Source: a virus. From it: DNA of 49,588 nt. Shown in pieces: positions 15,591 to 49,588 of the stretch. Both the position numbers and the translations under genes were made by a program. The notes below the pieces were generated by a model. The model ran no database searches and had not been told where the DNA came from. It saw nothing but the letters and a program-made list of their open reading frames with translations. Each line of letters opens with the position of its first letter. Positions within the stretch are counted from its first letter, which is position 1. Where the stretch lies: positions 1-49,588 of IMG/VR virus record IMGVR_UViG_3300038688_000001, one strand, 5' to 3'.

Positions 15591-16599
15591 AAGCAACCTG
15601 GCCTTTGCCGTCTTGGTAGGGGCCAGCTTGCTGCGTCTTCCCGGAGAGGGGGAGATGCGGGCCATGACTCGCGTTACCACTGAGATGGTTATGGTGTTCG
15701 GCCTTGCTGCGTGGATCGCTTACTATATCAACCCATGGGTAGGTCTGTTCTTGGCGTTGGCATCGGTGACGGCGGCTTTTCCAATATTTGACAGGTTCGC
15801 TTATTGGAGGCGTGAGGCCATCGTGTTCGGTGCCGTGTGGTATGCATTCGTAAATGGTTTAGACAGGGATCATCTTCTTGACGCTGTTTGTATTGTTGTC
15901 GTTGTCAACCTATTCGCTGTTTTAATGCAGTATTTTGGGATAGACCCGTATGCGTTCTTTTCTTTTGGACTGATGGATTCACACTCAGACGGGCGCATCA
16001 TTGGACTTTTATTTAATGAGAACGAGCTTTCAGCATTGTTCGGCATTTCATTTTGGGCGTTTTCAAGGGGGCCTCTATTTGTGTTTATGCCATTTATAGT
16101 GATTGGTATTTTTTTAACAAAATCATCGGTGGGTCTTGCTGCTGCCGGCGTTTCGGTCGGTGTTTGGCTTTTGGCGACCAGACGCTACAAATCGATAGCG
16201 ATTTTACTGGCCCTGGTATTCGTCGCTGTATTTTTTTATGATAAAAATATCGCAGAAAGCTTTGCATGGAGAATGAACTATAACGCTATAGCCGCGCAGA
16301 TAATTATAGACCATCCCTTGGGGATAGGTCTTGGGCATTGGCACAAGGCAACTAACCAACTACACGCTCATAATGACATCATTCAAATGACGGTAGAAAT
16401 GGGCGCGGTTGTTTTGGCGATATTCTCCGGGTTTGTGGTTTCATTTATTCGCAAAACAGATCTCACCGGAATTATATTTTTGTCGGCGATCATGGCGGCA
16501 TCCCTGGTGTCTTTCGCCTGGTTTATTCCAACCACAGGGTTGATTATGGTAACACTAATCGCGGCAAGTGACGGGAAAAAGAATGCCAACTGCAACTAA
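15568..16599 (+). CDS. O-antigen polymerase/ligase-like integral membrane protein
   Basis: A 343-residue, very hydrophobic protein with about nine or ten membrane segments. Near residues 250-285 it has a large loop with GIGLGHWHKATNQLHAHND, which fits the His-containing loop of the Wzy/WaaL family that joins O-antigen or other surface polysaccharide chains. A phage enzyme of this kind could change the host surface sugar and block other phages from binding. Start is a GTG overlapping the previous gene; an ATG at 15655 with GAGAGGGGGA is an alternative but would cut off the first membrane segment. It is wedged between capsid and tail genes. Confidence 0.7.
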   Translation: MNTPQLNKSNLAFAVLVGASLLRLPGEGEMRAMTRVTTEMVMVFGLAAWIAYYINPWVGLFLALASVTAAFPIFDRFAYWRREAIVFGAVWYAFVNGLDRDHLLDAVCIVVVVNLFAVLMQYFGIDPYAFFSFGLMDSHSDGRIIGLLFNENELSALFGISFWAFSRGPLFVFMPFIVIGIFLTKSSVGLAAAGVSVGVWLLATRRYKSIAILLALVFVAVFFYDKNIAESFAWRMNYNAIAAQIIIDHPLGIGLGHWHKATNQLHAHNDIIQMTVEMGAVVLAIFSGFVVSFIRKTDLTGIIFLSAIMAASLVSFAWFIPTTGLIMVTLIAASDGKKNANCN

Positions 16600-36950: not shown

Positions 36951-37044
36951 TGGTGGCGGGGATTGGATTCGGACCCACGGACGGTGCTGCAACACCGCCA
37001 ACCGATTATAAGTCGGCCGCTTTAATCCACTCAGCCACCCCGCC
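36951..37044 (-). tRNA. tRNA with long variable arm and apparent UAU anticodon
   Basis: The RNA reads from 37044 to 36951, with CCA encoded. The acceptor stem is perfect (GGCGGGG with CCCCGCC), discriminator A. The D arm is GCT/AGC. The anticodon stem GCCGA/TCGGT closes a 7-base loop CTTATAA, so positions 34-36 read UAU (codon AUA, Ile). The variable arm is a 7-pair stem with a 6-base loop, as in Ser, Leu or Tyr tRNAs. The T stem has one mismatch (G-A) and a TCCGAAT loop. A long variable arm with an Ile-type anticodon is odd. Confidence 0.85.
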
Positions 37045-37076
37045 AAAATGATTTAGCGGAGATTGATCTTAGCCCA

Positions 37077-37463
37077 TCAATCTCCGCTTTCATTTTTAAA
37101 CTCACCCATTAAATCCCGAAAGGCATCAAACCATCTTGATATAACATCATCGGGCCAACTTGGGTCAAACGCTGGAAATTTTGACAGTAGCAACTTTTGC
37201 CATCCGATCTTTTCAACATGAGCATCGTTACGAGCCTTATCGTATTCGGGCGGTATCGTTTTTAACGCCGTAATGTCCATCCCTGATTTGCGAATACATT
37301 TCGATCTTCCGACAGCATGTTCCTTTACCAGCCGCCTCGCATCTTCCAGCTTTGGTGTGGGCTGCAAATAGCTCGGAACTTCCAGATTTTGTTTTAATCT
37401 TTTTTCAAAATCCCTGGCCTCATTACCCCTCAAAACCGGCGTTGGCTCAATGGGGCGTGCCAT
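37077..37463 (-). CDS. Hypothetical protein, 128 aa
   Basis: Begins MARPIEPTPVLRGNEARDFEKRL after a strong AGGAGGTGG site. An in-frame ATG at 37529, also with a good GAGGAGT site, could add 22 residues. The opening Met-Ala-Arg-Pro-Ile with PTPVL is often seen in small host-type proteins such as antitoxins. The rest is a helical, charged protein with one Cys. No catalytic motif visible. Confidence 0.6.
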   Translation of the reverse strand: MARPIEPTPVLRGNEARDFEKRLKQNLEVPSYLQPTPKLEDARRLVKEHAVGRSKCIRKSGMDITALKTIPPEYDKARNDAHVEKIGWQKLLLSKFPAFDPSWPDDVISRWFDAFRDLMGEFKNESGD

Positions 37464-45216: not shown

Positions 45217-45765
45217 TTACTTGGTCCCGAGAATTGCATGCAGGGCTGTGCCAACTTCATTTTTGATTGATTCTTCTTTATGGCGCTCAAGCTCTGCCTT
45301 GATTTCCTTTTTAACAGCGCTGGTGACAACATCCTTGGCCTGTTCAAGATCTCGTTTTTTTGCATCGGACACCCCTTTTTTGATGAACCATTCCGCAAAA
45401 GTCATAGAAGAAGATGTGCAGCCCTGTAGCCTTTTGCCAGTGCTATCGACAGGGCCAAATATGGTTTCGTCGAAATGTTTTTTCATGAGGTCTTCGATGG
45501 TCCCAACAAAGTTGGGTTCGCCCCATCTCCCGGTAAGGGCTATTTCCTCCGACATGAAGGACTCGACACGCTCACGCATCAGGTCCGATATCTGCTTGGA
45601 CACCATTCTTGACATATCCTCCGCAAGTTTTTTTAGAGTTGGCCCGGCTATGGTTTTGGCCGCCTGCCTCACGACAGAGTTGCGAAGCTCCTCAGTAATA
45701 AGGTCGCCGGCCGACATTTCTTCATCCCAAAGGTCGCCAAGATCAATCGTTACGTTGAGTTGCAT
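45217..45765 (-). CDS. Hypothetical coiled-coil protein, first gene of the recombination operon, 182 aa
   Basis: The ATG at 45765 has a near-ideal TTGGAGGT site. N-terminal MQLNVTIDLGDLWDEEM, then long charged helices (RQAAKTIAGPTLKKLAEDMSRMVS, KKEIKAELERHKEESIKNE). It follows the pseudoknotted leader RNA and so is the gene most directly exposed to its control. No family recognised. Confidence 0.65.
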   Translation of the reverse strand: MQLNVTIDLGDLWDEEMSAGDLITEELRNSVVRQAAKTIAGPTLKKLAEDMSRMVSKQISDLMRERVESFMSEEIALTGRWGEPNFVGTIEDLMKKHFDETIFGPVDSTGKRLQGCTSSSMTFAEWFIKKGVSDAKKRDLEQAKDVVTSAVKKEIKAELERHKEESIKNEVGTALHAILGTK

Positions 45766-45774
45766 ATCATACCT

Positions 45775-45884
45775 CCAAAAATAGAAATCCCGGCGCACAT
45801 CAGCTCGTGATGAGGACAATCAGGCGGGATTGGCTCACTGATGGCGCCGGGAAATATGTATGGTTTAATTTTATCCTCATCACG
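45775..45884 (-). ncRNA. Pseudoknotted leader RNA of the leftward operon (P-L leader)
   Basis: The predicted transcript start falls on the first base of stem 1. Stem 1 pairs 45884-45874 with 45816-45806 (11 perfect pairs). Stem 2 pairs 45852-45838 with 45803-45788 (15 pairs, one bulge). Their order is interleaved, so together they make an H-type pseudoknot. A 5-pair inner hairpin (45832-45828 with 45821-45817) stacks directly on stem 1. A U-rich stretch follows stem 2 and precedes the GGAGGT ribosome site. Found by eye. Confidence 0.6.
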
Positions 45885-45890
45885 ATTTAT

Positions 45891-45919
45891 ACTCTACTTC
45901 TTTGGTGTTGATGTGTCAA
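45891..45919 (-). promoter_or_regulatory. Leftward promoter (P-L) of the recombination operon
   Basis: Minus strand TTGACA (45919-45914), 17-base spacer, TAGAGT (45896-45891). The predicted start is near 45884, at the first base of the pseudoknotted leader. Confidence 0.65.
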
Positions 45920-46823: not shown

Positions 46824-46853
46824 TTGACACGCCCCACGGAATGTGCCTATTGT
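46824..46853 (+). promoter_or_regulatory. Rightward promoter of the HTH regulator, apparently leaderless
   Basis: TTGACA (46824-46829), 18-base spacer, TATTGT (46848-46853). Only 7 bases separate the -10 box from the ATG at 46861, so the transcript should start at or within a base or two of the start codon, as for lambda cI from PRM. Confidence 0.6.
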
Positions 46854-46860
46854 GGAACTC

Positions 46861-47058
46861 ATGAAGATTACACATATCACACGGACGATAGAGGCGGAGT
46901 TGAAGCGGATGTACGGGTCAAACCGGAAGGCTGCGGCAGCTCTTGGGATAACCTATAGAAGGTATTGCCAGATCAGACAAGGGCGCGTTGCGGACAGGCA
47001 GCTTAAGCCCAAGATGATTGATCGCGTTAAGTTAGCCCTGGGGGTTGAATCTACTTAA
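46861..47058 (+). CDS. Small HTH regulator (Cro/XRE-like)
   Basis: 65 residues. The centre (NRKAAAALGITYRRYCQIRQG) has a helix-turn-helix, with a basic flank; the rest is short and helical (MKITHITRTIEAELKRMYG, then KPKMIDRVKLALGV). It probably controls the divergent promoters on either side. There is no ribosome site because the transcript appears to begin at the ATG. It could be a Cro-like repressor or an activator; no separate CI-type gene was seen. Confidence 0.7.
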   Translation: MKITHITRTIEAELKRMYGSNRKAAAALGITYRRYCQIRQGRVADRQLKPKMIDRVKLALGVEST

Positions 47059-48905: not shown

Positions 48906-48934
48906 TTGACACCCCCTCCCGATTATGGTTTAGT
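48906..48934 (+). promoter_or_regulatory. Rightward promoter (P-R) of the replication genes
   Basis: TTGACA (48906-48911), 17-base spacer, TTTAGT (48929-48934). The -10 match is only moderate. The predicted start near 48941 is the first base of stem 1 of the leader RNA. Confidence 0.5.
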
Positions 48935-48940
48935 GGTAAA

Positions 48941-49058
48941 TGACATGCTGGTAAAATACAAAAAATACTTCGATAATTTAGATAGTCCGTTACGGGCTTC
49001 GGTGCTTCCTACCATTAGGCCAGCATGTCAGCCGGGGTCTGTAACGGGCTATCTTTTT
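48941..49058 (+). ncRNA. Pseudoknotted leader RNA with terminator before the initiator gene (P-R leader)
   Basis: Stem 1 pairs 48941-48951 with 49020-49030 (11 perfect pairs). Stem 2 pairs 48981-48993 with 49041-49053 (13 pairs, one G-U) and is followed by TTTTTT, an intrinsic terminator shape. The order is interleaved (H-type pseudoknot). A small inner hairpin (CCTA/TAGG) ends right at stem 1, as in the P-L leader. After stem 1 both leaders have an A-rich linker beginning TAAAAT or ATAAAAT. Confidence 0.6.
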
Positions 49059-49073
49059 TATTGAGGATTGCCA

Positions 49074-49588
49074 ATGAACACTGACTTCAGAGTACTTGTC
49101 TCTCTGCCGACACATCCAAAAGCCCTGAAATTAATGAGGCGTTGCGGTGATATCGCATTTTATAATCTAATACGGTTCTGGGCATACGTGGCTCAAAACA
49201 AGCCGGACGGGGTATTAACAGGATTAGATTTAGAGGATATAGAAATTGCCGCAGGTTGGTCTGGGCAATGCTCAGAGTATGCTCAAGCATTGCTCGATTT
49301 AAGGTTTATAGATGAGCGCGACGGAACATATTATGTCCACGACTGGGAAGAGAGTAATGGGTATGCCTGTCACGCAAAAAAAAGGTCAGAAAGAGCAAGA
49401 AAGGCCGCTGAAGCCCGATGGAATTCACGAAATAGCAAAGACGGCATGCCAAATAATGCTACAAGCAATGCCGTAGCAATGCCGGATGATGCTACAAGCA
49501 ATGCCCCTGCTCCTGCTCCTACTCCTGCCCCTTCTCCTTCTCCTTCTCCTACTCCTGTTCCTTCTCCAGATAGAGATACCCCCCCCAC
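49074..49588 (+). CDS. Replication initiation protein, N-terminal part (continues at base 1)
   Basis: ATG at 49074, GAGG upstream. The N-terminal domain (FRVLVSLPTHPKALKLMRRCG, AFYNLIRFWAYVAQNKPDG, VLTGLDLEDIEIAAGW) is a winged-helix DNA-binding domain typical of phage DnaD/O-like initiators. Then comes a basic region (KKRSERARKAAEARWNSR), repeated Asn-Ala-Thr-Ser-Asn-Ala units, and a long Pro/Ala/Ser/Thr linker that crosses the window end. It would bind the origin, which is often inside this kind of gene, and load the helicase encoded next. Confidence 0.82.
   Translation, partial: MNTDFRVLVSLPTHPKALKLMRRCGDIAFYNLIRFWAYVAQNKPDGVLTGLDLEDIEIAAGWSGQCSEYAQALLDLRFIDERDGTYYVHDWEESNGYACHAKKRSERARKAAEARWNSRNSKDGMPNNATSNAVAMPDDATSNAPAPAPTPAPSPSPSPTPVPSPDRDTPP

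Follow-up and report, generated by a model that had tools for sequence, protein, structure and literature searches.

What kind of RNA opens the early transcripts of this phage, and how could it act on the genes behind it? To our knowledge, very few RNAs are known to control phage transcription without a protein, put being the chief example. The locus lies in a 49.6-kb IMG/VR virus record, the whole of which was analysed and is called the window here. A preliminary description had proposed that its leftward transcript begins on a pseudoknotted leader, that a similar leader stands at the rightward replication promoter, and that the two represent a new RNA antitermination or attenuation element comparable to put.

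The leftward promoter, TTGACA-17-TAGAGT, is the top leftward sigma70-like site in a scan of 36.9-49.6 kb, with a score of 10/12 (Table 1). The leader behind it has its elements in the order S1a-S2a-P3 hairpin-S1b-G-S2b, an interleaved arrangement in which 1 nt separates S1b from S2b. The pseudoknot spans 45885-45788 on the minus strand and is followed by a U-rich run, a Shine-Dalgarno sequence and the ATG. An S2 of 15 pairs with one bulge (a U), its interleaving with S1, the inner hairpin and the U-rich end were all found as first described. The S1 helix is there as well, although 12 perfect pairs were counted in place of the 11 claimed. The label "P-L promoter" needs amending: a leftward promoter is present, but it is internal, standing behind two small leftward genes (46702-46502 and 46228-45962) and not beside a repressor gene.

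An identical stem order recurs at the rightward replication promoter, just as had been stated: an 11-bp S1 and a 23-bp S2 are interleaved, with an inner hairpin and a U-rich tail. Here too a single G separates S1b from S2b, and GAGGA lies between the tail and the ATG at 49074. The distance from TTGACA to S1 is 28 nt in the leftward leader and 29 nt in the rightward one. Since S1 starts 5-6 nt past the -10 hexamer in both, the RNA should begin on S1; both promoters are consensus matches, from which we infer the transcript starts. The stems of the two leaders have no sequence in common, and both leaders carry TAAAAT straight after S1a, a candidate site that could induce sigma-dependent pausing.

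Table 1. Positions of promoter, leader and gene features at the two pseudoknot leaders of the window
Feature	Position	Strand	Basis
Leftward promoter, -35 hexamer TTGACA	45914-45919	-	Consensus match; 17-nt spacer to -10
Leftward promoter, -10 hexamer TAGAGT	45891-45896	-	Consensus match; S1 starts 5 nt downstream
Leftward S1 5' strand (S1a) TCGTGATGAGGA	45874-45885	-	Expected RNA 5' end; 12 perfect pairs with 45816-45805
TAAAAT, -10-like hexamer directly 3' of leftward S1a	45868-45873	-	Sequence
Leftward S2 5' strand (S2a) TCCCGGCGCCATCAG	45838-45852	-	15 pairs with 45803-45788, one bulged U
Leftward P3 inner hairpin CAATC-CCGCCT-GATTG	45817-45832	-	Between S2a and S1b
Leftward S1 3' strand (S1b) TCCTCATCACGA	45805-45816	-	Perfect complement of TCGTGATGAGGA
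Leftward S2 3' strand (S2b) CTGATGtGCGCCGGGA	45788-45803	-	Pairs with TCCCGGCGCCATCAG
Leftward U-rich tail UUUCUAUUUUU	45777-45787	-	Sequence; directly 3' of S2
First leftward-operon gene, 182 aa, ATG 45765	45217-45765	-	Shine-Dalgarno GGAGG 45776-45772
Rightward promoter TTGACA (48906-48911), 17 nt, TTTAGT (48929-48934)	48906-48934	+	Consensus match
Rightward S1 5' strand TGACATGCTGG	48941-48951	+	11 perfect pairs with 49020-49030
TAAAAT, -10-like hexamer directly 3' of rightward S1a	48952-48957	+	Sequence
Rightward S2 5' strand	48980-49002	+	23 uninterrupted pairs with 49032-49054, 5 of them G-U
Rightward inner hairpin CCTA-CCAT-TAGG	49008-49019	+	Sequence
Rightward S1 3' strand CCAGCATGTCA	49020-49030	+	Complement of TGACATGCTGG
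Rightward S2 3' strand (49032-49054), then U-rich tail UUUUUAUU	49032-49062	+	Paired with 48980-49002
Replication initiation gene, ATG 49074, running past window end	49074-49588	+	PHROGs replication initiation protein, E 2.4e-15

The expectation that stems of this length would not arise by chance was borne out. A scanner for interleaved stems followed by a U-rich tail scored the two leaders at 73.2 and 79.2, against a maximum of 56.0 in 400 dinucleotide shuffles of the window and of 61.2 in 32.7 Mb of shuffled phage DNA. The window pseudoknot leaders are thus confirmed as real, and at each promoter the degree of structure greatly exceeds that expected by chance. RNAfold does not allow pseudoknots; in the leftward leader it retains S2 and loses S1. 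When the nascent RNA reaches only to S1b, the best nested fold is S1 (-24 and -28 kcal/mol for the two leaders); once S2b emerges, S2 wins (-29 and -38 kcal/mol). No leader gave a gathering-score match among 4227 Rfam families, in which the window matches nothing besides a tRNA, and blastn of both leaders against phages returned no match.

The operon behind the leftward leader encodes a DUF3799 nuclease, a recombination/exonuclease-family protein and NinB, while the rightward leader precedes the replication initiation gene, with DnaB next. Between the leftward and rightward arms is a DUF7267-like HTH gene at 46861. Because a few small genes of the respective arm precede each promoter, both are internal early promoters and not the repressor-flanking pair. 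The earlier remark that no N-like gene was seen agrees with the searches: no tested protein matched an N- or Q-type antiterminator family, with most small genes matchless altogether. The 182-aa product of the first leftward gene has only a weak match to phrog_26090, and no relative of it turned up in viral contigs, among phages or in 395 Desulfobacterota genomes; neither the DnaB nor the recombination protein has relatives among the viral contigs searched. A third leader was looked for near the late genes of the window and not found. The nearest relatives of the replication gene (56%) sit in Desulfobacula MAGs, where they are without such a leader; from this placement the host group is likely Desulfobacterota. 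Several other features of the window deserve mention. At 46824-46861 (+), 7 nt separate the end of TTGACA-18-TATTGT from the ATG of the small HTH gene, a probable leaderless repressor-type transcript. A tRNA-Ile(TAT) at 36951-37088 has an unusual length of 94 nt by ARAGORN, and beside it, where leftward and rightward operons meet, lies a 13-bp bidirectional terminator. C-rich runs occupy 1-20 and 49575-49588, and the replication gene seems to cross both, which makes a circular or end-overlapping record probable.

Among 88 replication-gene loci, a pseudoknot abutting the gene beat 200 of 200 shuffles only in the window and in a Desulfobacterota prophage (L212). The prophage leader has TTGACA, 28 nt, an 11-bp S1 (TGCGGCCACAC/GTGTGGCCGCA, extendable by AGACAGGAG/CTCCTGTCT) and a 15-bp S2 (CAGCGCCCCCGAGGT/GCCTCGCGGGGCGTTG) with no gap between S1b and S2b; its -10 hexamer is poor, and downstream of S2 come GGAGG and the GTG start of a replication-gene homologue. 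Covariation in homologous leaders had been named as a test of the proposal, and here both helices are kept with different sequence: S1a matches the window at only 2 of 11 positions, so that nearly all S1 pairs have changed on both sides with pairing retained. Defined by an S1 near +1, an S1b inside the S2 loop at most 3 nt from S2b, a U-rich run, a Shine-Dalgarno sequence and a start codon, the layout class comprises the two window leaders and that of the prophage. Another phage (L095) has the window-type order, with TTGACA-17-TAGAAT, a 15-bp S1, a 23-bp S2, UUAUAUUU and a primase gene, and a score of 89 against a null maximum of 63.6 in 56 Mb, but about 40 nt of transcript precede its S1.

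A second kind of leader, type A, is a sequence-conserved RNA family with about 50 distinct loci in at least 70 IMG/VR contigs and no match to any Rfam family. Two weaker matches (L059 and L066) led to MW202544, and one pattern search from there led to 70 viral contigs. Its position is that of the window leaders, namely promoter, pseudoknot, U-tract and start codon, usually upstream of replication genes, and in most loci the RNA begins about 4-9 nt past a TANNNT hexamer. The fold comprises a hairpin at about +1 with the loop UUGGCG (P0), the pairing of that loop with CGCCAA (P1), a long stem of 18 pairs with one internal mismatch (P2), the element P3, a CC-GAAA-GG hairpin (P4) and a contact of the P3 loop with the stretch immediately 5' of P2 (P5). 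In the plasmid ColIb-P9, CGCCAA, the complement of UUGGCG, forms a pseudoknot. The 3' end is a run of U5-9, with the start codon 8-11 nt further on in 60 of 69 loci. Twenty records carry one copy per phage, and among 300 Burkholderiales genomes there was one match. In MW202544.1, a replication-initiator-like ORF behind the leader (L113:6078-6779) is unannotated in GenBank, and the record places a small ORF on the opposite strand, overlapping the leader. Another contig with a type-A leader also holds a Betaproteobacteria-1 RNA (L126:10563-10680; RF02932, 100.8 bits).

Covariation extends over all type-A helices, in which G-U pairs also occur. In 33 distinct sequences, standard pairs fill 97.7% of pair cells versus 82.4% when shuffled, and two-sided changes affect 34 of 43 pairs versus 18; two-sided cells number 196 versus 47, a count reached in 0 of 500 shuffles. 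Sliding the partners lowers pairing to 36-44%. The search pattern kept constant the 3' strand of P1 as well as parts of P3 and P4, and only sequences with UUGGCG were extracted, so constancy in P1, P3 and P4 is partly by construction; P0, P2 and P5 were unconstrained by the pattern. The complementarity between L1 and the P3 loop is kept in every sequence though the letters differ, and four members found without the pattern (L059, L045, L052 and L236) show compensatory P1 changes (TTGATCG/CGATCAA and TTGGTCG/CGACCAA). One of these, L059, had been misread by the initial scan, which demanded unbroken stems: the apparent S1 (CATCCTTT/AAAGGATG) is actually P0 plus P4, and the true contact is TTGATCG/CGATCAA. 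Like the window leaders, type A combines a promoter, a 5' element that base-pairs with the loop of a long stem, an inner hairpin, a U-run and a start codon; unlike them, it has the P0 hairpin loop, the P4 GAAA hairpin, the P5 loop contact and conserved sequence. Neither the UUGGCG hairpin loop nor the CGCCAA pairing occurs in either window leader, and the window gives no match at E<=1 to the type-A covariance model R1, to which true members score 83-122 bits. The link is therefore one of architecture only, between leaders that are alike in layout and belong to different families.

A further pseudoknot, type C, occurs in a contig (L236) where a type-A leader also stands upstream of a DUF1376 gene. 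Located 3.5 kb further on (16266-16400), between the NinB and terminase genes, it has a 13-bp S1, no gap, an S2 of about 22 bp and the inner hairpin CCCTTTAATGGG. The interval from NinB to terminase is where Q and the late promoter are found in lambdoid phages. A second example (L064:9002-9120), 1.1 kb before Terminase_2, shares the inner hairpin, CCCTTYAATGGG being common to both; a search for type C beyond these two gave no further case. The promoter of L059 (about 60 nt, 93-98% identical) precedes a different structured leader at seven loci (L043:5156, L044, L046, L060, L064:3906, L065 and L087), with a terminator, complementary loops GAATCA/TGATTC and a KilA/Rha-like gene downstream; leaders behind this promoter look exchangeable. 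Next to a CI-like repressor gene, L089:1191-1330 holds a possible pseudoknot leader right behind a promoter, which was set aside as a member and kept as a lead only (its score of 55 is about the null rate). An HDV-like ribozyme fold was also rejected, as the strand order differs and there is no catalytic core.

These observations make the pseudoknot leader more general than first claimed, and leave the function then proposed a possible one. Our preferred reading, held tentatively and at somewhat less than even chance, is that the leaders are cis-acting pseudoknot RNAs that gate access to early operons, perhaps as attenuators in which the 5' end of the RNA ties up a terminator-like stem. What we infer, from the transcript start and folding in vivo to termination, the gating step and its trigger, would run as follows. 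The transcript's first 12 nt (S1a) would pair with S1b inside the loop of the later, terminator-like S2, which with its U-rich run stands just 5' of the Shine-Dalgarno site that serves the operon's first gene. As S1b emerges before S2b, S1 would form first, after which S2 would have to thread through the S1 loop to zip, closing as a pseudoknot and so more slowly. With S1 formed, S2 would be delayed and the polymerase, and the ribosome, would read on; were S1 blocked or opened by some factor, S2 would form freely and transcription would stop at the U-run. The anatomy, the duplication at two promoters, the same layout with changed stems in the Desulfobacterota prophage and the covarying type-A family argue for such a gate. 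Against it, S2 exceeds S1 in both length and stability, and S1 may thus be unable to hold it off. The U-run after S2 is good in type A and in the rightward leader, interrupted in the leftward one (UUUCUAUUUUU) and poor in the prophage (UUGUGUCU), so leaders of the window type do not share a conserved terminator. A role in translation would fit the close placement of the start codon equally well.

Processive antitermination, in which the folded leader would bind the elongating polymerase and let it read through distant terminators in place of N (in some phages, of Q), is a possible reading to which we give rather low odds. The leaders open both early transcripts, as putL does at PL, and TAAAAT at about +12 to +18 in both recalls the -10-like sequence at +23 to +28 of putL, which is thought to cause sigma-dependent pausing (PMC9378689). 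The type-C leaders (L236:16266 and L064:9002) occupy the lambdoid Q/late-promoter place, and the lack of antiterminator matches would suit an RNA substitute, many proteins being without any match. Nevertheless, the U-run behind S2 resembles a terminator, no strong intrinsic terminator was seen inside the leftward operon before 37088, and antitermination does not need leaders that abut start codons. A leader for translation or mRNA stability, its pseudoknot shielding the 5' end and offering the U-run and Shine-Dalgarno sequence to ribosomes like that of ColIb-P9 repZ, is also on the doubtful side. Every window-type leader leads directly into a GGAGG-like site, and type A adds both the short, regular distance from U-run to AUG and the UUGGCG/CGCCAA pairing upstream of, mostly, replication genes; yet a strong stem with U7-8 behind it has the signature of a terminator, the window leaders are without UUGGCG, and the plasmid system requires an antisense RNA, for which none of 50 type-A loci and neither of the window leaders showed a sigma70-like promoter. 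Stand-alone small RNAs, with downstream expression as readthrough of their terminators, would account for compact units of promoter, about 100 nt of pseudoknot and U-run, but are improbable: the near-fixed, short distance to the start codon, in sense orientation before many different genes, points to a role in cis, and the two copies in one phage have no common sequence. Inverted repeats acting as DNA, at operators or a replication origin, are very improbable; both sites lie by promoters and one adjoins a replication gene, but 5 of the 23 pairs in the rightward S2 are G-U, as are some in type-A helices, and the strands are placed on the sense strand from +1 in an interleaved, not palindromic, order. 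Chance complementarity, of which any long window holds some in the form of inverted repeats, is negligible beside the shuffle controls and the recurrence in the prophage and in type A.

Gating by pseudoknot leaders may have a wider reach. We consider it conceivable, if rather doubtful, that in phages of several bacterial groups each major transcript opens with its own fast-diverging pseudoknot RNA, which, with no protein antiterminator involved, gates or reprograms the polymerase at early, replication and, through type C, late promoters, replacing N and Q. If true, RNA-only control of early and perhaps late phage genes would be a common device, a reach that rests on a covarying, unlisted family in at least 70 phage contigs and on a layout recurring with unrelated stems in Desulfobacterota phages. 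Knotted RNAs at the promoters of dozens of phages would then mark an overlooked route of early-gene control, and the leaders, at about 120 nt, are compact, testable parts.

Of the known systems, fluoride-type riboswitches with an intrinsic terminator likewise set a 5' pseudoknot and a terminator-like stem before a gene, but they differ in genes and architecture, and no Rfam aptamer matched here. The putL and putR RNAs of HK022 resemble the window leaders as cis RNAs at the start of early transcripts, in two copies per phage, with no protein partner seen. They differ in being about 70 nt long, with two tandem, non-interleaved stem-loops and sequence common to both copies, and no U-run abutting a start codon is described (PMC9378689). 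The put analogy therefore stands for position, at the start of early transcripts behind consensus promoters, and the put label fails on structure, with interleaved stems, unshared stem sequence and U-rich tails close to the start codon. No window-type structure was found in HK022 at 22.0-40.75 kb (18.8 kb including the early region), where the short sequence matches to the window leaders are likewise at chance level (best 13 nt, E 0.027, within an unrelated gene). What is supported of the first proposal is a structured RNA at the transcript start, repeated at the replication promoter; the antitermination fold of put is not what these leaders form. The IncI-alpha plasmid ColIb-P9 offers a different comparison: its repZ leader, controlled by the antisense Inc RNA plus FopA, sets a pseudoknot before a replication initiator gene, and its UUGGCG loop is that of type A (PMC9977716, PMC10724649). 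Its need for antisense RNA sets it apart, as does the absence of the hexamer from the window leaders. Recurring before phage replication genes, this plasmid-leader loop would join two fields.
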